From the IMG/VR virus record IMGVR_UViG_3300042868_002811, positions 1-21,662 of that record: a stretch of DNA of 21,662 nucleotides. The stretch is one strand, 5' to 3'. How positions within the stretch are numbered: the first letter of the stretch is position 1; each line of letters begins with the position of its first letter. Positions 954 to 17,920 of this stretch are shown here, one piece after another. The stretch is from a virus. A model generated the notes under the pieces. That model was not told where the DNA came from. It saw nothing but the letters and a program-made list of their open reading frames with translations, and ran no database searches. The position numbers and the translations under genes were made by a program.

Positions 954-1201
954 TGGAAAAGGTCGTCTAGTTGTTCGGGTGTTATTGAGAATTTAGGCGC
1001 AAGGGTAGCGAGCAATTCAGAATTACGTCGAACGGTCGTTTCATATTCCCATGAGTTCTGAGCCAAGGCTCGATCCGTCTCGTTAGGGATTTTTGCAATC
1101 TCATCATCAACCAATGACGGGGTGATGCCAGCGAGTATCAAACGTTGGCGAAACGCCGCCATGCTTAGACTCATTGTGTTTCTATCGAGTTCTGATTTCA
1201 T
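950..1201 (-). CDS. Conserved small phage protein of unknown function
   Basis: The protein has 83 residues, is all-helical in appearance and has no membrane segment. The core, MSLSMAAFRQRLILAGITPSL followed by ALAQNSWEYETTVRR and ITPEQLDDLF, resembles small phage proteins encoded next to tail fibres, for which I know no assigned function. A second in-frame ATG ten codons in (MSLSMAAF) is an alternative start. I keep the first because it overlaps the fibre stop by ATGA at 1198-1201, the pattern used throughout this operon. A chaperone or attachment role with the fibre is possible but not shown. Confidence 0.65.
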   Translation of the reverse strand: MKSELDRNTMSLSMAAFRQRLILAGITPSLVDDEIAKIPNETDRALAQNSWEYETTVRRNSELLATLAPKFSITPEQLDDLFQ

Positions 1202-2955
1202 CCTAGTGCTAGTTTACGGTTTGATATACGGGCAATGATTGAATTGCCAGATGATGGTGCATTTGTTGAGTGAGTCGCTACAACCCATGCTGGCGTGCCA
1301 AGGTTGGCAAAATTTCCGCTAGTAGGGCCACCTGCAAGCGTTGCGCTAGGTGTTGCACTAGGAACCGATGAGGAGCTTGTGGATGAGCCAAACCAAGTAT
1401 GAGCTGTTACCGTTCCATCACTTGCCAGTCGGAGAATGATGTTAAAAAAGCCGTCAAGGTTTCCCGCGCCAAGTCCCGTGTCGATTCCTGTTCCTTCGAC
1501 GTAGGTAGTCCCGTTATGCGCCCAAAGGTTGAACTCTAGTTTGCTGGTGCTGCTATTCCAAGCAATTCGCCATCCAAAGCCCCTGCCAGTAGTCGCGTTA
1601 GCATCTGCCGCAACTGCTGATGCGCCATTTACCATGCCAAATCCACAACGAAAACTTGCGCCGTTCGCTCCCGATCCAAGGTGGTAGATATTACCTGCGC
1701 ATGCCAGCCTGACTGGAATAACGGCATTTGCAGTGCCTGAAACTCCCGGGTTTCTGTTCCAGTTTCTGAAGCGATAAACGTTAGGACGTTGGTTAGCAAG
1801 TAGTGCTGACAACGAAAGACTGTCACCGTCTTGCGATGATGTCGCTGTTCCTAGGTTTGCTGTAAAAACTCCAGCGTCCGATTCTTGGCGCGTCAATAGG
1901 GTAAACAATGACTCAATTTGCAAATCAGCCGATGTGATGTCTAGCGCGTCTCTGTGCGCTGCCGCCGCCCCTGCGCCGTAGGTGTAAGTCGTCGCATTGA
2001 ATGTTGCCGATGTGCCAATCGTCGGACTGGTCAGCGATGGAGATTCAGCAAAAACCAATGATCCGCTTCCCGTTTCGTCTGTCACCGCTGCGGCAAGATT
2101 CGCGCTGCTTGGCGTTGCGAGAAATGTCGCTACGTTTGCCGCTGGGGTTGTTGTCGCTAGCGTTGTAAGCCCTAACACCGTGCGAGCGTCACTGCCTGAC
2201 AATGCAGCTATGTTACTGCCCCCGCCCGATGCCCTGCCAAGTATTGTGTTGTTGCCAACTGACAACGACGATGGCGAACCTGTGCCTGATTGCTGGACTA
2301 ATAGCGAGTGCGCTGGGGTGTATGCTGATTTTAGAACTGTGTCGCCTGATGCTGATACACCTAAAGCCGTTCTATGCGCTGCCGCTGCGCCTGTCCCGTA
2401 GGTGTAGCTTGTGGAGTTAAATGTTGTCGTTCCTGCAATCGTGCCGTCTGTGAGCTTGTCAGGAACTCCCGTGGTGCTTGCTGTTAGTGCCACCGTTCCG
2501 CTTGCGTTTGGGAACGCGATGCTTCTCGCATCGGTAGCCGCTTGACCGCTGAGCTGCACAAAGCCGCCTGAGTTAGTACTTGCCAAAGTAATTGATCCGG
2601 ACGGCACTATGCCCAAATATGCAACGCTCAGATTCGCCGTCCCATCGCTAGTCGTTGCGCTGGTCACGCTGTTTGGACCTGCTGCGCCTGTTGCGCCTGT
2701 TGCTCCTGTCTCTCCCGTATCGCCTCTTGGGATCGTGAAGTTAAACACCGCCGCGCTAGTCGTGCCGCTGTTTGTAACGCTTGCGTTTGTCCCAGCCGAA
2801 CCCGTGGTTGTTGTTCCAACTGCTACGGTTGCTGATGTTCCTGCATCGCCTTTCGGTCCAACATTCAAGCGGATGATCGTCGGTCTGCCAGCGCTGCCAA
2901 GCTCTACTAAATCAGGTCCAGAAAAAGCGCGAATTTCAACTGTTGAGATACTCAT
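1198..2955 (-). CDS. Collagen-like tail fibre or receptor-binding protein
   Basis: The protein has 585 residues. The N-terminus (about 1-40) probably attaches to the tail. A short collagen-like run of Gly-X-Thr/Ala triplets occupies residues 78-94, after a glycine- and threonine-rich segment typical of phage fibre stalks. The middle holds two copies of a segment (ATFN.T.YTYG.GAAAAHR.AL) separated by 140 residues. The C-terminal 230 residues are a separate beta-rich, tryptophan-containing globular domain (GFGWRIAW, FNLWAHNG), a likely receptor-binding or carbohydrate-binding tip. Trimer formation is expected for this class. It follows the small 104-residue gene with an ATGA overlap (2952-2955) and couples to the 83-residue gene downstream. 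The fibre call is confident from composition, repeats and position; the receptor is unknown. Confidence 0.8.
   Translation of the reverse strand: MSISTVEIRAFSGPDLVELGSAGRPTIIRLNVGPKGDAGTSATVAVGTTTTGSAGTNASVTNSGTTSAAVFNFTIPRGDTGETGATGATGAAGPNSVTSATTSDGTANLSVAYLGIVPSGSITLASTNSGGFVQLSGQAATDARSIAFPNASGTVALTASTTGVPDKLTDGTIAGTTTFNSTSYTYGTGAAAAHRTALGVSASGDTVLKSAYTPAHSLLVQQSGTGSPSSLSVGNNTILGRASGGGSNIAALSGSDARTVLGLTTLATTTPAANVATFLATPSSANLAAAVTDETGSGSLVFAESPSLTSPTIGTSATFNATTYTYGAGAAAAHRDALDITSADLQIESLFTLLTRQESDAGVFTANLGTATSSQDGDSLSLSALLANQRPNVYRFRNWNRNPGVSGTANAVIPVRLACAGNIYHLGSGANGASFRCGFGMVNGASAVAADANATTGRGFGWRIAWNSSTSKLEFNLWAHNGTTYVEGTGIDTGLGAGNLDGFFNIILRLASDGTVTAHTWFGSSTSSSSVPSATPSATLAGGPTSGNFANLGTPAWVVATHSTNAPSSGNSIIARISNRKLALG
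1951..2440 (-). repeat. Two diverged direct repeats inside the fibre gene
   Basis: The unit at 1951-2020 recurs at 2371-2440, exactly 420 bases (140 codons) away. Both encode TFN.T.YTYG.GAAAAHR.AL with silent and conservative changes. They look like repeated shaft or junction modules and are a possible substrate for recombination between fibre variants. Confidence 0.75.
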
Positions 2956-3266
2956 GGTCTAAGTTTTAGGTTTCCTCCAGCGATAACAATTGGGTTACTA
3001 TCTTCATCCACTAATAAGACGCGCCAAGTATAATTTCCTGCCAGAACACCATCTGTTGAAGCGTCAACTTCAACGATGCCGCTCGCTGGGGTGGAGATCG
3101 TAGGTGACAAGTCGATCACGTCTGTTTCATCGCGTGGCGATTGCCTCACCCATCCTTCGGCAGTGTAGCCGCTCAGATTGCTTGGTTGTCCCTCATCGTC
3201 GAGGCAAGATAAGCGAAGCGTGATGACTTCGCCGATGTAATACTCAATATTCGCGCCGTCGCTCAT
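2952..3266 (-). CDS. Small beta-rich baseplate or fibre-adaptor protein
   Basis: The protein has 104 residues and is predicted to be mostly beta strand: IEYYIGEVITLRLSC, then NLSGYTAEGWVRQ, a loop, and YTWRVLLVDEDS before the end. This resembles the N-terminal domain of BppU-like baseplate proteins and small immunoglobulin-like tail adaptors, but the match is by pattern only. It is one of the few genes here with a usable Shine-Dalgarno sequence: AGGA at 3274-3277, seven bases from the ATG at 3266. That may permit translation at a rate different from the coupled genes. It sits between the glycosyltransferase gene and the collagen-like fibre, which starts inside its stop codon. A role joining the fibre to the tail tip is plausible. 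Confidence 0.65.
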   Translation of the reverse strand: MSDGANIEYYIGEVITLRLSCLDDEGQPSNLSGYTAEGWVRQSPRDETDVIDLSPTISTPASGIVEVDASTDGVLAGNYTWRVLLVDEDSNPIVIAGGNLKLRP

Positions 3267-3278
3267 GTCCTTTTCCTA

Positions 3279-3989
3279 CTATGCTTTTTGATTTTGTGCA
3301 AGCCTAAAGTTGAAGTCGTTCAATCTCCGCATTGCGAGTGTAATTTCAAGTGCCCGATCTTTCCAGCCGTCTGCTGGTGGATTGCCAAAGGTCAGAACGT
3401 CGAACCTCGCACAGTCCACTGGATCGAATGTTTTCGGCACTGCGGAGAAGGCGCCGCCGTTCGGGTTGAAGTCGTGCAGCTTGTGTCTGATGTTCAAACG
3501 TTTGATTGATTGCCAAATGAGAACGTCCTCTGGTCCGTGTGGATCATTCATCGCCGCTAGATCGTCATGAACCCGGCGAGCTGCGTCACGGGTCAGAGAA
3601 TAGCAACAGCCGAAAGCTTCGCGCCGGTTCATCGTGCTTGAGCATACTCCAGTGCTGATGCCTTGGAAGCTGTCCACTCGCTGAATGATCGTGTCACTGT
3701 CGAGCTTGAAGGCATGTCCCGTGTGCGTGAGCCTCATTGCCTCATACAAGCTCTTTGCGATGCCTGCCGCGCATTCTGTGCCGTTGAGATTGCCGCGGCG
3801 GTTGAAATCACTCTGAAAATACAAGCCGCCTTGTGATTCCACCCATGACCATACGGCATGTCCCATCGGGTGCTTTGCGTCGTCAATGACAACTGGCAAA
3901 AGCCCTGCAATTTTCGCCCCTCTCACGCACTCACGGAGAGGAAGCGAATCTGCTGAGTAGGTGAAAATGCAAGCGGGAATCATCGCCAT
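3279..3989 (-). CDS. GT-A-type glycosyltransferase-like protein
   Basis: The protein has 236 residues. It begins with a strand-helix-strand pattern (PACIFTYSADSLPLRECV, then GLLPVVIDDA) expected of a nucleotide-sugar-binding GT-A fold. A hydrophobic approach to an acidic triad, FKLDSDT, at residues 94-100 supplies a DxD motif (D97, D99) that would bind a divalent metal and the sugar nucleotide. Later GPEDVLIW (152-159) resembles the acidic ED motif that holds the acceptor or catalytic base in several GT-A families. The ATG at 3989 is preferred because GAAGG lies nine bases upstream; a second ATG at 3983 gives an exact ATGA overlap. No membrane span is seen, so a cytoplasmic enzyme is likely. 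Its target could be a tail protein or host surface sugar. The fold call is fairly good; the substrate is unknown. Confidence 0.65.
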   Translation of the reverse strand: MAMIPACIFTYSADSLPLRECVRGAKIAGLLPVVIDDAKHPMGHAVWSWVESQGGLYFQSDFNRRGNLNGTECAAGIAKSLYEAMRLTHTGHAFKLDSDTIIQRVDSFQGISTGVCSSTMNRREAFGCCYSLTRDAARRVHDDLAAMNDPHGPEDVLIWQSIKRLNIRHKLHDFNPNGGAFSAVPKTFDPVDCARFDVLTFGNPPADGWKDRALEITLAMRRLNDFNFRLAQNQKA

Positions 3990-4918
3990 AAGATTGAGCC
4001 TTCGTGGATCTGTATTAGTAAGCCGTTGCCGTCGCTGTATGCAATCGGCACATATTCGAGACTTGAACTATTAGCAGGTAGAGTAGTTGAGAAGAACGGA
4101 CCTGCTACGCTTGTGAAATTGCTGCCTGACTTTGTAATCTCCACATAGACATACCCAAGCTTCGGGAATGCCGGTGAGAGCGTGACCGCCATGTTGAATG
4201 GCTGAGAATCGCCGTATGTCGTCTCACCGTAAGCAGTTGATGTGAAAGTTCCGCTGGGTGAGTCGGGTGAGTAGTCTGCGGATCGTGTCGCAACGTCATC
4301 GGTGCCGTCATTGATCTGCGCGGTGCCGTCTGAATTTGTGGTCAGAAGCCATGTCGTGTTCGTCCACTCGCGAAATCCAGTCAGCGGATATTCGCCGCCC
4401 TGCGCTGTGCCTCTCGATACTAGCACATTCGCCGTGCTGGTGCGTCTCACGCCATCGTAGCTGATGTCGAGCGTAAATGCCGTGCCTCCGTTGTAAGTGT
4501 CCTCTCCGAACGTTGTAGCCGTGAAGGTGCCCACCGGCGCAATGGTGAATGAGCCTGTGAATGTCGCTATCGCCGTGTTTGTCGGGTCAACGATTTCTGC
4601 TGTGCCTGCACCAAAGTCTGCAATAACTTTGTTTCCCACTGAGTCGGTCCATTCGTCAGTGTCCGTTTGTCCGAACCAGCCGACGGGTGATAGCGTAGCG
4701 GTGATCGTGCCAGACGATTTGACGCTGCCCCCGCCACCCCCGAGGAAGATCGGCGCGGCGCTCGTGCTTGTTCGTAAGTCCTCGGTTGCTGTGAGCAATG
4801 ATGTCGGAGTTCCGCCCACGATGTAGTGTGTGCTGGTTGCCGCCTTGAGATCCACGACATAGCCGCCATTACAGAGAATGTTTCCGTTCGAATCAACTGT
4901 GCAAAGAAATTGGGTCAT
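3980..4918 (-). CDS. Duplicated-domain tail tip or fibre protein
   Basis: The protein has 312 residues, rich in Thr, Ser, Gly and Asp, with no membrane segment. A polyglycine hinge (LGGGGGS) near residue 60 separates an N-terminal section from two related beta domains. The halves can be aligned by GTFTATTFGEDTYNGG and GTFTSTAYGETTYGDS, each followed by a hydrophobic beta strand. The last 60 residues form another section ending in EGSILWR. Position directly after the hub protein (ATGA overlap at 4915-4918) and before the glycosyltransferase suggests a tail tip extension or side fibre. Ser/Thr richness would make it a possible glycosylation target, which is inference. Confidence 0.65.
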   Translation of the reverse strand: MTQFLCTVDSNGNILCNGGYVVDLKAATSTHYIVGGTPTSLLTATEDLRTSTSAAPIFLGGGGGSVKSSGTITATLSPVGWFGQTDTDEWTDSVGNKVIADFGAGTAEIVDPTNTAIATFTGSFTIAPVGTFTATTFGEDTYNGGTAFTLDISYDGVRRTSTANVLVSRGTAQGGEYPLTGFREWTNTTWLLTTNSDGTAQINDGTDDVATRSADYSPDSPSGTFTSTAYGETTYGDSQPFNMAVTLSPAFPKLGYVYVEITKSGSNFTSVAGPFFSTTLPANSSSLEYVPIAYSDGNGLLIQIHEGSILWR

Positions 4919-6897
4919 GGATTGAAAACGATGTTGTCTTGTGAAGTTCTGCGGATTTTGTCGGTGAAGCTGCGGTAGTCGAGACGAGGTGGAGTGCCAA
5001 GCGTTAGATCAGTGGTGCCGTTCTTGAGGTCGAGCGTTTCCTCTGCGACCATCGCGCCCATGCTGGCAAGCTCGGATCGTGTGCTGTCAAGGTTGACTTT
5101 GCAGCCTCGGTATCTTGTCCCGCCTGCGGTCTGCTCAGTGATGCGCACGCTGCCTTCATATGGTATGAAATTCATCGTTGTGAGCAAGTTCGATGCAAGG
5201 TTCGCCGGTGGTGAGATGAAAGAGTAATCGGCTGGTGCAAACACCTTCGTTCCGAGGATTCGATACGGGAATCCTGATCTTGTTCTGCCGCCTGTGGACG
5301 TTGAATAAGTTGCAGCTTTAGTAGTTCCATTGTAGCTTGTGATTGTCGCGATATACCAAACATCATTTACCCCGTCAGGCGATATTGGCAATGGGTTTTG
5401 CAAGTATGCAATTCTCATGCCAGTGTAAAATCCATCAATTGAGCTTGCGGTAGTTGCGAGAACTAAAGTGTTAGATGATCCACCCGTTCCGCTTCTTAGC
5501 GTGCCATACATGTGCGGTAGCGTCGAGCTGCTGGTCGTGTAACCTTGCACGGTGTAAGTGCCGCCAACTAGTATGTAGTGGAAATCGCCATCCCAAAATG
5601 AATCTACTTGTGTTCCGCCCAAAGAATCAAGCCATGACGGTTTGCCATCGTTGGAAACATAGCCATTGCCAAGGCTAAAACGCTGGTCTTTCCATTCGTA
5701 AACCCATTGTCCAGAGATGACAATTGGTTTCAAATTGTGTGCCGTAATTGCCCACTCTGGCAAGTTGTCGGAGAGAATGAGTTGTGATCCAAGTGAAGCT
5801 GGCTGTCCTGTGTCATCGGTGACCGACGCCTCTGGTTGCGTGTATTGCACGGAACGAGTCCCGCTGAATGAACCAGTCGAAGGACTTTTGCCAGATGAAT
5901 ATCCGCTGTATTGCCGCTGCCCCTGTTGAATGTTGATCTTGGTAAATCGAAGCCCGTTTGCGACCGCTCCAGCGAATTGAGATGACGATAAAACGAAATC
6001 CTCAAACTGCGTAGCGAGCGGGAAGCCTGTCAGCGTGGCAGAGTCGAAATATTCGCTCGGCAGGAAGGTATCAAGTTCGGGTCCGCTGATTGTCAGCACC
6101 TGAATTTTGCCAACTGTTGCCGTGCCTGACGATTGTGTCTGATAGCTCGTCAATCCGTTTGTGTCGCGTGTGACGTATGGTAGAACCACCTGCGAAACTT
6201 GCAGTTCGATCATCGGGTTGACGTCGAAATCTTCAACGGGTGAGGTGCCAATCGTGAGCGTACGCGTAGTCGCTGCGCTGCGCCTGACGACGTTGAATGT
6301 CGGTGTGGCGTTCGTATAGTCAAAATAGGTCATCGTGTCAGGAACGAGCCTCACAAGCTCACTGATGACCTGTGCGCACGTTGACTGATTGAGCGTGACG
6401 CGCGGGATGTCGAAATACGTTCCAACCGTGCTTCCGCCTGTGATGTTTGCCATCGGCACCCCAAGTGAAACGCTCGTATTAATCGCGGTCTGAATTGCCG
6501 TGGTCAGATTCGTCCCGCTGGTCGCATTGCCGAAAACTCCCGTGATCCGATTTGCACTTGCACCTGCGCCATCGGTCTGGCTCGTGACATAGTTGATGCG
6601 TTCCATGAACCACCAGGCGTTGCTGATCGTGACTGTGATCGAGTTGTTCGATGTCGTTCGGACATTGGTGACGTAACCCGTGAAGAATCGTGAGCCATTG
6701 CGGAAAAGATCGACTCTCTGCGCGTAGGTGGGAATCGTGTAGCTAACGACGTTTTGTGGTGAGATGTTCAGCACCAATTCATCGACTCCGACGCTGCGGA
6801 ACGTGAGCGATGCGTTTTCTACTGCACGCTCTGCCAGCGTCTTGGATGTTGTGTCCCAAGCTTTCCCTGTTTCTCCTGTTATGGTCCAAACTGGCAT
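4915..6897 (-). CDS. Baseplate hub or tail tip protein
   Basis: The protein has 660 residues. The N-terminal 100 residues (strands around LTFRSVGVDELVLNI, QRVDLFRNGSRFFTGYVTNV and SITVTISNAWWFMERI) follow the pattern of the gp27/VgrG-type hub fold, in which a structural protein reports displacement variables in the tail tube axis. The next 200 residues (TCAQVISELVRLVPDTMTYFDY) fit the second part of the same hub. The remainder is beta-rich and probably species-specific. It starts with a TAATG junction at the tape measure stop (shared base 6897) and ends coupled to the 312-residue gene. The place immediately after the tape measure is where siphophages keep Dit, Tal or hub proteins. I see no lysozyme or peptidase motif. 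Confidence 0.7.
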   Translation of the reverse strand: MPVWTITGETGKAWDTTSKTLAERAVENASLTFRSVGVDELVLNISPQNVVSYTIPTYAQRVDLFRNGSRFFTGYVTNVRTTSNNSITVTISNAWWFMERINYVTSQTDGAGASANRITGVFGNATSGTNLTTAIQTAINTSVSLGVPMANITGGSTVGTYFDIPRVTLNQSTCAQVISELVRLVPDTMTYFDYTNATPTFNVVRRSAATTRTLTIGTSPVEDFDVNPMIELQVSQVVLPYVTRDTNGLTSYQTQSSGTATVGKIQVLTISGPELDTFLPSEYFDSATLTGFPLATQFEDFVLSSSQFAGAVANGLRFTKINIQQGQRQYSGYSSGKSPSTGSFSGTRSVQYTQPEASVTDDTGQPASLGSQLILSDNLPEWAITAHNLKPIVISGQWVYEWKDQRFSLGNGYVSNDGKPSWLDSLGGTQVDSFWDGDFHYILVGGTYTVQGYTTSSSTLPHMYGTLRSGTGGSSNTLVLATTASSIDGFYTGMRIAYLQNPLPISPDGVNDVWYIATITSYNGTTKAATYSTSTGGRTRSGFPYRILGTKVFAPADYSFISPPANLASNLLTTMNFIPYEGSVRITEQTAGGTRYRGCKVNLDSTRSELASMGAMVAEETLDLKNGTTDLTLGTPPRLDYRSFTDKIRRTSQDNIVFNP

Positions 6898-8537
6898 TAT
6901 CTAATTGGTGCGGTTCCGTATTTTCCAAGTAGCCTTAGAATCTCTTTGTTTTGCTTTTGCAAATCCCTTCCGAAGTTGTTCATTTGTTGAATCAACATGT
7001 TGACGTTCTGCACGTTAATGTTTTGAGCTGTCGTTGCGCTGCTTGTTACTTGTTGAATGGCGACTGTTGCTTTTCCTGTTTCATTGGCGAGAATCTGATT
7101 ATCCTTCAACAATACTTGTATCGTCGCCAATCCTTCCTGCTGCGCTTGATTTACTGGCGTGATGTTTTCAAACGTTTTTCTGAGCAAATCAGCGTTTGCT
7201 GTTGCTTGCGCTTCTAGCTCATTCGTTTTCCCCGTAATGTATTGCTCTTGCCCTTTTAAGTCGATTCGTTCAAGTGCGCCTGTTACTTCAATGCTGACAT
7301 TTTGCAATGTCAATTCAGACGCTAGCAAGCCTTGAGCCGCTGCGTTCAAATCTTCTTGCAATCTGCCGTTAACAGCGTTTGAGATGGCTGTGATTCGTGC
7401 ATCTAATGCTTTTATTTCAGCATCAAATGGAGTTGATGCAAGTTGTTGTTGCGCTGCGCTTGCCGCATCACTTGGTTTATAAATCGGAACACCAGCGCGA
7501 ATTGATTGCCGCTCATCAATCGTTGTTTCTTTTGATATCTTTTCAAGCTCTTTCTTGCGCTCGCGTAAAGCCTCAAGACGTTTGACCTCAGTATCAAGTT
7601 CTTGCTGACTGAGAACTAAAGCGTGACCACGTTGTGCTAGTTCATCTTGAGCTAAAATCTTAGCTTGCTCTGCTTGCTTTACCTTTTCAATCTCAGCTTG
7701 TTTTTGCTGTTCTTGCTGTAAGAGAATCGCTTCATTTTGTAACTTAATCGAATCGAGTCCTGCTTGCGCATCTGTATAGTCGCCTCTTAGCTTTTTAAGT
7801 TCAATCTCAGCTTGCTTCAGGTTGTTTATTCCAGCAAGCGCTTGATTTGTGAAAAGTTGCTCGCTTGTCGATGCAATTTGAAAGCCTTGCGATAGTAATT
7901 TAGTTAGCTCGATTGCCTCAGCAATAGCATCGCGACCCATGTCGATTTTTTCAGACTGCAATTTACCAGCGTTTTCTGCGATCTTGTCAATTGCGTCAGC
8001 TAGTGTTTGCGCTTTTTCTTCGACAGTCGCCGCGTCATCTCCCATCTTCATGAAGACCCCAGTCGCTGCCGCTCCAATGGCAAGAATGCCACCAAGGATA
8101 GCGCCAGTAGGACCAAATGCTCCAAGTAATTGTGAACCTTGCTGTGCGAGAATAGTAGTTGCAGCAACACCCATCTGAGCTTGAACCGCGATGTCCTGAA
8201 CCTGCAAGCCGACTTGTGCTGCTTTTTGTGAGCGACCTGACGTAGCTTTTGCTAATGCTTGTTGCTCTTGTGCTACAGCTCTTTCTGCTGCTTTAACTCG
8301 TCGTGCTGATTCTTTCTCTGCCTCTACTGTCTTGCGCTTTTCCTCACGAATCACAGCGTCAGCCGCTTTCTTTGCTGCTTGCTCTGCTTTTAGTGCCGCT
8401 CTTTCTTCGGCCGAAATTCTTTTCTTGCTAGTCTTTTCTGCCTCCTCGCCTACTTTTTTTAGACCATCTTCCGTCTGCTTAGCGCCTGTCCCGCTTGCAG
8501 TTGTGTTGATCTTAATATCGACGTTCTTCGCTGCCAT
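6897..8537 (-). CDS. Tail tape measure protein
   Basis: The protein has 546 residues. Residues 25-100 form a long charged Lys/Glu/Ala coiled coil. Residues 108-165 contain LQVQDIAVQAQMGVAA, then LAQQGSQLLGAFGPTG and a Gly/Ala/Ile-rich hydrophobic segment, the classic pattern of siphophage tape measures that form the membrane-interacting part during DNA ejection. The C-terminal two thirds is again Gln/Glu/Lys-rich helix (KQAEIEKVKQAEQ). From the rule of about 0.15 nm per residue, the tail would be roughly 80 nm long. The gene is noticeably less GC-rich than the tube and hub genes around it. It lies one codon after the preceding tail gene and shares base 6897 with the hub gene. Confidence 0.88.
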   Translation of the reverse strand: MAAKNVDIKINTTASGTGAKQTEDGLKKVGEEAEKTSKKRISAEERAALKAEQAAKKAADAVIREEKRKTVEAEKESARRVKAAERAVAQEQQALAKATSGRSQKAAQVGLQVQDIAVQAQMGVAATTILAQQGSQLLGAFGPTGAILGGILAIGAAATGVFMKMGDDAATVEEKAQTLADAIDKIAENAGKLQSEKIDMGRDAIAEAIELTKLLSQGFQIASTSEQLFTNQALAGINNLKQAEIELKKLRGDYTDAQAGLDSIKLQNEAILLQQEQQKQAEIEKVKQAEQAKILAQDELAQRGHALVLSQQELDTEVKRLEALRERKKELEKISKETTIDERQSIRAGVPIYKPSDAASAAQQQLASTPFDAEIKALDARITAISNAVNGRLQEDLNAAAQGLLASELTLQNVSIEVTGALERIDLKGQEQYITGKTNELEAQATANADLLRKTFENITPVNQAQQEGLATIQVLLKDNQILANETGKATVAIQQVTSSATTAQNINVQNVNMLIQQMNNFGRDLQKQNKEILRLLGKYGTAPIR

Positions 8538-16155: not shown

Positions 16156-16524
16156 TTATTCCTCTGTGTCCATTTCTTTTCTCATGCTATCAATTCTTTC
16201 TTGTATTTTTGCTTTTAGAATCTCCAAGTCGTCAATCATTTCCTCACCCCATCCATCTTCTCCGTATGAGTAGTCATCTTTGACGGTGTCAAGAAACTCA
16301 TCTATTTCAAACTTGCATACAATTGCTGTGTCGCCGTTGTCGTCATACATGGTTACTACCATTGACAGATTGCCATCTGATTTACCTAATGTCATCTCTG
16401 CGTTAGAAATATCCGCGCATTCTGGCACGTCCTCTTCTATGTTGCTGATTGCATTTTCAATCTGCTCCTTTACCAAAGCGATAATTTCACTGTGTAGACT
16501 TGGTTTGTTGATTTTTAGTTTCAT
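16156..16524 (-). CDS. Acidic AT-rich gene inserted between terminase and portal
   Basis: The protein has 122 residues and matches no family I recognise. About 32 residues are Asp or Glu against about 12 Lys or Arg, giving a net charge near -20. It starts with a helix (LHSEIIALVKEQIENAI), then beta strands (LSMVVTMYDDNGDTAIVCKFEIDEF), and ends in a charged helix (LEILKAKIQERIDSMRKEM). The gene is clearly more AT-rich than the flanking terminase and portal genes, and it interrupts the usual terminase-portal pair with unlinked starts. That looks like a moron acquired by transfer. A DNA-mimic or anti-defence role would fit the charge, but a head assembly role is equally open. Confidence 0.65.
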   Translation of the reverse strand: MKLKINKPSLHSEIIALVKEQIENAISNIEEDVPECADISNAEMTLGKSDGNLSMVVTMYDDNGDTAIVCKFEIDEFLDTVKDDYSYGEDGWGEEMIDDLEILKAKIQERIDSMRKEMDTEE

Positions 16525-16533
16525 TGCGGCGCA

Positions 16534-16562
16534 ACAATGACTTGTTTTTTTGCAAGCGTCAA
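16534..16562 (-). promoter_or_regulatory. Possible sigma70-type promoter before the acidic gene
   Basis: On the minus strand TTGACG (16562-16557) is separated by 17 bases from CATTGT (16539-16534). The -35 box fits five of six consensus positions, the -10 box only three. The expected start site would be within a few bases of the ATG at 16524, giving an almost leaderless message. It lies in the 46-base gap after the large terminase stop. Weak evidence. Confidence 0.3.
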
Positions 16563-16570
16563 CAATAAAA

Positions 16571-17920
16571 TCACAAAGCGTTAAACCCTCGGACCGTTCG
16601 ACTGGCGAATGTGTTCCTCGATGTGGTAACTGATGCCGCGCCCGTCATGGCTCCGCTGATGCGACTGCCGAGCGCGATGCAAGCAAGCAATGCGTCAGCG
16701 CGGTCCGGTGACTTCATGCTTTTCGCTGCCATCTTTTCCTTCGATTCGACGCGCAGCTTGCCCGTTTCGTTCCACTCGCTTTTTCGTGTGGTTATCTGTG
16801 AGAACGTCATTGGATCGAGTTCGCCAACGTGTATTCTGCCGCGCTCCAGCTCACGACTAGCAACGTGCCACACCTGCGCGATAAGGTTTGCGTATTCGTC
16901 CTTCTCACTCGCTGGCTTGCCGCCATGGAATCGGTTGATGTGCCAGCCAAGCTCGGCGAACTGGTCGCAGAAGCCGGTGCCAAGTCCGTCTGCATCTCCC
17001 CATACCTGCCCAGCGCTTAGTCCTTCGGCTTCAAACATTCGTATAAATTCCCTCGCTGCCTGCACTGTGTCTCGTTCCTGCCATGCCTTCACGATGCGAG
17101 CGTGATTGCCGCGGCGAATTGCCAGAACGTTTTCGTCTCGCCCTGCTGCAAAGTCACAGAATGCCACTACTTCTCCGAACGGTGCAGGCTTAGGCTGAAT
17201 GTCCAGTGCGTTGCGTAGCAAGTCCGGTGCGAGAACCAAGCGGTCGAAGTCCTCAGTGAACTCGGCGAGATGCTTTGAGCGGTAGAGCGGATGCGATTCG
17301 CCATATTTCATGCGATCCAGTTCGCGCTTCTCCGCGCTGATGTGTGCGCAGTCTGTCGATGGCACGCGGATCGTCTTGTAGAGGCTGGAGTTCTTGTGGA
17401 ATGAGTCGTAGAACTGACCCCGCGGCGCTCCAGGTGACGACACCCAAAGCTCGAACTTCCGCGTGCATCGGTCGAACGCTTCGAAGATAGCGTCTGGAAC
17501 CGTCTTGGCTTCGTCGATGATGAGGAACACGGGATCAACATCGCCGCCGATCTTCGGGTGATGTCCTTCCGCTCGTCCCGGGTTGTCGGTCGAGAATCCG
17601 AACGCATAGCCACCCTCGGGCGTGCGAAGCTCCTCGGACATGAAGCGCCAATGCGGGAACCTGTGCTGATAGACCTTCACCGCGCCCCAGAGCTGCTTCT
17701 CGATCTGCATCCACGAGCCGCTGGTGAAAATGCACTGCCCACGCGGGAACTCATGCAGGAACCATAGCACAAGCGGTGCCACCAGTCGTGCAGTCTTGCC
17801 GCTGCCGTTCGCTGCGACCACGCTGGTCGGCTGTTCCATCGCCACCGACTCCATGGCTTCGCACTGCCAAAGGTATGGCACAATGCCTAGAACTCGAACG
17901 CAGAACTCGGTTGGTGTCAT
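16571..17920 (-). CDS. terL: Terminase large subunit
   Basis: The protein has 449 residues. The ATPase domain carries Walker A AANGSGKT (36-43) and Walker B FLIIDEA (132-138), followed by SSPG at 161-164, the coupling motif. The nuclease domain has CDFAAGRDEN (D256), WGDADG (D309, D311) and SPDRADAL (D406, D409), the RNase H-like metal ligands. It packages DNA into the procapsid through the portal and cuts concatemers. The length is typical of this class. It overlaps the small subunit stop by ATGA (17917-17920). The C-terminus is Ser/Thr/Arg-rich after residue 425 and may contact the portal. Confidence 0.93.
   Translation of the reverse strand: MTPTEFCVRVLGIVPYLWQCEAMESVAMEQPTSVVAANGSGKTARLVAPLVLWFLHEFPRGQCIFTSGSWMQIEKQLWGAVKVYQHRFPHWRFMSEELRTPEGGYAFGFSTDNPGRAEGHHPKIGGDVDPVFLIIDEAKTVPDAIFEAFDRCTRKFELWVSSPGAPRGQFYDSFHKNSSLYKTIRVPSTDCAHISAEKRELDRMKYGESHPLYRSKHLAEFTEDFDRLVLAPDLLRNALDIQPKPAPFGEVVAFCDFAAGRDENVLAIRRGNHARIVKAWQERDTVQAAREFIRMFEAEGLSAGQVWGDADGLGTGFCDQFAELGWHINRFHGGKPASEKDEYANLIAQVWHVASRELERGRIHVGELDPMTFSQITTRKSEWNETGKLRVESKEKMAAKSMKSPDRADALLACIALGSRISGAMTGAASVTTSRNTFASRTVRGFNAL

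Follow-up and report, generated by a model that had tools for sequence, protein, structure and literature searches.

Organization of the Tail Module

The window analyzed here is the whole 21,662-nt stretch of the IMG/VR virus record IMGVR_UViG_3300042868_002811, in which a structural gene run on the minus strand encodes the terminase, portal, protease, major head protein, tape measure, hub, gp_312, a putative glycosyltransferase (GT), gp_104, and a fiber. The tail part of this run comprises the following genes:

6897..8537, minus strand: tape measure protein (phrog_1538, E 2.4e-12)
4915..6897, minus strand: gp_660, predicted tail hub of 660 aa and candidate acceptor (hub fold; homologous to Akkermansia phage hubs)
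3980..4918, minus strand: gp_312, hub-partner tip protein and candidate acceptor (10-nt overlap with the GT; synteny)
3279..3989, minus strand: putative GT gene (ORF of 236 aa; GT-A fold in the model; unnamed family)
2952..3266, minus strand: gp_104, small tail protein downstream of the GT (phrog_1084, E 2.6e-7; synteny)
1198..2955, minus strand: collagen-like fiber protein of 585 aa (phrog_4120, minor tail protein; short G-x-y stretch)

The original prediction had placed a glycosyltransferase-like gene at 3279-3989 and had left out its strand; the coordinates proved correct and the frame lies on the minus strand, the plus-strand frame being interrupted by stops. An open frame of 236 codons has a p of ~2e-5 per position in random sequence with the same GC, and the dN/dS values of 0.018-0.187 obtained against eight relatives indicate that the gene is under purifying selection, so the ORF exceeds chance and is a real gene. 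The GT starts inside gp_312, and the resulting overlap of 10 nt (3980-3989) points to a translational link with the tail operon, as had been claimed; it ends 12 nt short of gp_104, which in phages without the GT is the next gene after gp_312. The described flanks were also recovered, with gp_312 (26% Ser+Thr) on one side and gp_104 and the collagen-like fiber on the other. The Ser/Thr content of gp_312 differs slightly by GT presence (0.230 vs 0.208), a difference not used as evidence.

The label of a tail adsorption operon is a fair one, since gp_660, directly upstream of gp_312, is by structure comparison a tail hub of the gp27/gp44-like type. Its model, of moderate confidence (pLDDT 63.6), consistently matched hub proteins, namely Mu gp44 (Z 14.4), the PVC hub (14.2), T4 gp27 (10.9), and T5 pb3 (10.5), and the hubs of Akkermansia phages are homologous to it (hhalign probability 99); a tblastn search with gp_660 against the phage records gave no match. 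The hub fold of gp_660 is discontinuous, spanning residues 1-636 in the alignments and broken by long, poorly predicted stretches such as 95-209. A resemblance of gp_312 to the C-terminal domain of the Akkermansia hub, seen by eye, obtained an hhalign probability of 0.7 and was dropped.

Predicted GT-A Fold and Active-Site Motifs

The AlphaFold2 model of the GT, built with 32 aligned sequences, reached a pLDDT of 93.4 and a pTM of 0.91. When this model was compared with the PDB, 969 of 999 chains scored at Z ≥8, and those listed were all GT-A enzymes. Among the matches listed from Foldseek and VIA-align, the best was CHSY3 (Z 16.4), accompanied by B3GalT5 (14.8), Manic Fringe (14.7), GlyE (14.4), C1GalT1 (14.2), glycogenin (14.1), and the PBCV-1 capsid glycosyltransferase (14.0), and predicted viral structures also returned many glycosyltransferases. 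CHSY3, B3GalT5, Manic Fringe, and C1GalT1, which are eukaryotic Golgi enzymes, have the GT-A fold (Z 14.2-16.4) and the DxD and ED motifs in common with the window GT, from which they differ in sequence (7-18% identity). GT31-type enzymes were among the best structural matches listed, where rows within 1 Z count as tied, but a match to a Pfam model did not accompany them. Profile comparison by hhalign, with GT2 and GT8 profiles taken from related genomes, gave probabilities of 2.5-8.7 for the GT against GT2 and of 2.6-2.8 against GT8, in a setting of low power where the control of GT2 against GT8 itself reached only 0.4.

The conserved segments of the protein map to the window as follows:

3771..3800, minus strand: family signature R64-x-G-N-L-N-G-T-E-C73 (conservation)
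3693..3701, minus strand: DxD motif D97-S98-D99, predicted to bind the metal and the nucleotide-sugar (conservation; end of strand 92-97)
3600..3614, minus strand: F126-G127-C-C-Y130, candidate GT-A G-loop (placed by order along the chain, not by superposition)
3525..3533, minus strand: xED motif P153-E154-D155, predicted catalytic base (conservation; start of helix 154-164)

Both motifs on which the glycosyltransferase reading was first based are present, as K95-L-D97-S-D99-T and G152-P-E-D155-V-L-I-W (GPEDVLIW, residues 152-159), and their key residues are strongly conserved among distinct relatives: D97 in 72/74, D99 in 74/74, E154 in 72/72, and D155 in 68/72. The family signature exhibits a similar level of conservation (R64 72/74, G66 71/73, N67 70/73, L68 71/72, G70 71/74, C73 67/74), and within the candidate G-loop G127 was kept in 71/74 and Y130 in 73/74. 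DxD and xED are the shared active-site motifs of GT-A enzymes, the xED Asp serving as the base of inverting enzymes (PMC7185993, a deep GT-A study). A conserved His in the C-terminal part was sought across the 74 distinct relatives and none was found; the C-terminal His of GT-A enzymes has been lost in several clades (PMC7185993). The GT-A core, on which the original prediction had made its case depend, is present in the predicted structure, and the DxD lies at the end of strand 92-97. With this confident fold in the model and the conserved DxD and xED, the identification of the protein as a GT-A fold glycosyltransferase is well supported at the level of predicted fold, and the enzyme is probably metal-dependent (through the DxD) and inverting (with the xED Asp as base).

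Distribution of the Family

Searches of Pfam, PHROGs, and NCBIfam with the GT and its relatives, both as single sequences and as profiles, returned no match, leaving the family unnamed in these libraries, and a PDB sequence search with the same proteins gave no useful match. Relatives were found at 44 IMG/VR loci, on five genome contigs (one from a Verrucomicrobiaceae MAG, three from Akkermansia, and one from a "Bacteroidales" MAG), in four Akkermansia phage records, and in one Akkermansia plasmid record. Many of these loci are fragments from metagenomes, and some of the rows nearly duplicate others; counts are given on distinct sequences where stated. The named phages carrying the family are Chantilly, Chambord, and Moulinsart, and in the annotated Akkermansia phage records examined its only annotation was "hypothetical protein".

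In the phylum to which the Verrucomicrobiaceae MAG belongs, a survey recovered family members in 16 of 387 genomes, against a single one among the 395 genomes surveyed from the phylum of the "Bacteroidales" MAG. Since that single genome was the MAG itself, its record may be misbinned. The family is accordingly all but limited to Verrucomicrobiota and the phages infecting them, and on the grounds of this range the host of the virus probably belongs to the same phylum.

Several members deviate from the common arrangement. The phage-like contig of the "Bacteroidales" MAG (L019) carries two overlapping tandem members on the plus strand (5159-5986 and 5971-6696), the second of which has GES in place of the xED and lacks its Asp. 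Chromosomal members occur in Akkermansia-related genomes (L089, 3912-4679, minus strand; L090, 12810-13583, plus strand; L073-L076; and L087), with no obvious prophage around them; those of L090, L073-L076, and L087 adjoin a gene reading like sufE, and a gene reading like aspS lies near those of L089 and L090. The latter two loci also hold a degenerate member directly before an RHS-repeat gene (L089, 18359-19144, minus strand; L090, 2913-3698, plus strand), in which KPD replaces the DxD and PEG replaces the xED, and which is perhaps inactive.

Position beside the Tail Hub

Gene-neighborhood analysis revealed that 50 of the 64 distinct family members lie directly after a hub cluster protein (30) or a gp_312 homolog (20), the hub cluster being defined by single linkage, such that it may include a few tail proteins of another kind (e.g., L080, L081, L088). 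The gap was 15 nt or less in 46 of these 50. This placement was found in freshwater and Akkermansia phages alike, and in the latter the GT directly follows the homologous hub though other tail genes are differently ordered. In more distant members the preceding gene encodes some other tail protein, and several of these proteins have a common N-terminal motif near GDPIxAxWxNxL, recognized by eye. Because most distinct relatives directly follow the hub or its partner, we assign the GT to the tail-tip module. On the earlier question of whether homologs always sit beside the same fiber genes, the answer is that they adjoin the tail hub or its partner, not the fiber genes as such.

The same placement bears on which molecule would be glycosylated. 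A fiber, another virion protein, a host protein, DNA, or a small molecule could be the acceptor, and the collagen-like fiber gene two genes downstream of the GT, together with one relative that follows a collagen-containing fiber, would agree with this; however, most relatives follow the hub or gp_312 and not fiber or DNA-metabolism genes, and few GT-carrying loci showed collagen-like stretches, so that we regard such an acceptor as distinctly unlikely. The gene context favors a tail protein. Within the tail, the GT is better conserved than the hub and gp_312 in some relatives, as in L029, with 80% for the GT versus 47% and 53% for hub and gp_312, which argues against tight co-divergence with a single acceptor; an enzyme reading a short conserved motif would also fit this pattern.

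Gain and Loss at a Single Site

A search based on the hub recovered phages that have the GT between gp_312 and gp_104 and others that lack it at this site. On the hub tree, in which 29 of the 56 rows have the GT and 27 do not, the GT changes state seven times, at least six of them on supported branches, and thus, as reconstructed from these sequences, it comes and goes at one site in a cassette-like manner. The median length of gp_312 is 428 aa in phages without the GT versus 312 aa in those with it. Most of the homologs in GT-less phages are longer, bearing either a domain of ~115 aa inserted behind residue 120 or additional repeats of the TYNGG type (insert or repeats in L123-L140, L148, and L156; and in L107, L145, L147, L159, and L165). 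All four informative independent pairs agree with a trade-off between the GT and a longer gp_312 (4/4, p 0.125), which is not significant on the tree and makes the trade-off suggestive, a lead and not a result. The loci L110, L120, and L122 are without both the GT and a longer gp_312.

The usually greater length of gp_312 in GT-less phages, through insert or extra repeats, is what one would expect if the GT-A protein were a noncatalytic component of the tail tip, serving in structure or in sugar binding and replacing the extra gp_312 domain. We consider such a role highly improbable: the DxD and xED are kept almost without exception and mere binding would not need both, the opposition with gp_312 length does not reach significance on the tree, and three loci have neither element.

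Prophages with Additional Putative Sugar-Related Genes

Two prophages carry, besides one GT, a second family member or a sulfotransferase/Stealth-like gene. An Akkermansia-relative prophage (L092) has two family members on the minus strand (3489-4238 and 16451-17356), one after a 952-aa protein in the hub position and the other after a 565-aa fiber with a collagen match. In a Verrucomicrobiota prophage (L093, on contig 23 of G316), whose locus is surrounded by phage genes, a gene of ~796 aa (1717-4104, minus strand) directly follows the hub and GT. Its product matches sulfotransferase at E 3.6e-5, short of the curated cut-off, and also has a second DxD-bearing region, recognized by eye, and a weak Stealth match (E 0.0069), features by which it is possibly a multi-enzyme glycan builder in the tail operon. 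This sulfotransferase/Stealth-like protein was sought in the viral contigs and none was found. Both arrangements are those one would expect if the glycans of tip proteins get extended or capped.

Proposed Function and Comparison with Known Systems

We propose, with a probability of about 0.6, that the GT is a GT-A enzyme of the inverting type and that, while the tail is being assembled, it glycosylates the tip protein encoded next to it. As a small, soluble, cytoplasmic protein made with the hub gp_660 and gp_312 from one overlapping gene run, it would transfer a sugar from a host nucleotide-sugar to a side chain (e.g., Ser or Thr) of the hub or of gp_312, in the cytoplasm and before or during tail assembly. 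The virion would thus bear a glycan at the point of host contact, from which we infer a benefit in adhesion, shielding, or receptor tuning. Tail-tip glycosylation is supported by the GT-A model, the virtually invariant motifs, purifying selection, and the hub-adjacent place, as well as by the gain and loss at one site, the two copies of L092, the sulfotransferase/Stealth-like gene of L093, and the precedents discussed below. Against it stand the chromosomal members that have a sufE-like or RHS gene as neighbor and no tail gene, the dispensability of the GT in many relatives on the hub tree, and the lack of co-divergence with one acceptor. We hold it to be plausible and better grounded than when it was first put forward.

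Its strongest rival is that the GT modifies a host surface glycan or a cytoplasmic precursor thereof (LPS, capsule), blocking re-adsorption of sister virions. A role of this type has already been proposed for glycosyltransferases encoded inside the tail loci of Xenorhabdus tailocins, which would alter the producer's own LPS (PMC13280938), and the chromosomal copies of our family outside a prophage context would suit it as well. The Xenorhabdus genes resemble the window GT in residing within a tail locus, but they occupy a hypervariable, often inverted region, whereas the position of the window GT behind the hub is constant. A gene inside the tail operon would be made late, with the virions; the GT accompanies the hub or a different tip protein and not a lysogeny region; and where one prophage has a second copy, this accompanies a second tip protein. 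On balance, we consider modification of the host surface unlikely.

For glycosylation of the tail tip, the closest precedents are phage-encoded glycosyltransferases of mycobacteriophages (Che8 gp110, Corndog gp38, and Myrna), which were reported to glycosylate the phages' own capsid and tail-tube proteins (PMC12363180). A GT gene within the virion gene module, as in phage virion-glycosylation systems, is also the arrangement observed here (50/64 after the hub or gp_312). The mycobacteriophage enzymes differ in acting on the capsid and tail tube, whereas the family described here goes with the tail hub in Verrucomicrobiota phages, and its activity is predicted. PBCV-1 offers another small GT-A enzyme from a virus (Z 14.0), which according to the title of PDB 2p73 takes part in glycosylating the major capsid protein; it shares a role in virion-protein glycosylation and differs in its sequence (10% identity), its origin in an algal virus, and its acceptor, the major capsid protein. 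Virion glycosylation by phage enzymes is thus a known kind of activity, and what the original prediction called little-described for a tail operon has, as a class, a precedent in mycobacteriophages (PMC12363180). The novelty lies in a GT-A family that is unnamed in the libraries searched, goes with the tail hub, and occurs almost only in Verrucomicrobiota and phages of that phylum.

A broader arrangement is possible, though doubtful, in which Verrucomicrobiota phages would place one dedicated GT-A enzyme directly after each tip or fiber protein that is glycosylated, sometimes with further sugar-modifying genes, and in which the tip glycan would replace the host- or mucus-contact role of an extra protein domain in GT-less sister phages.

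Reports of phage glycoproteins concern a few mycobacteriophages, in which they occur in capsids and tail tubes. A cultured host and the named phages carrying the GT family make it experimentally approachable. A sugar on the tail tip, if true, would bear on host recognition, and in Akkermansia phages it would perhaps be relevant to life in the gut mucus.
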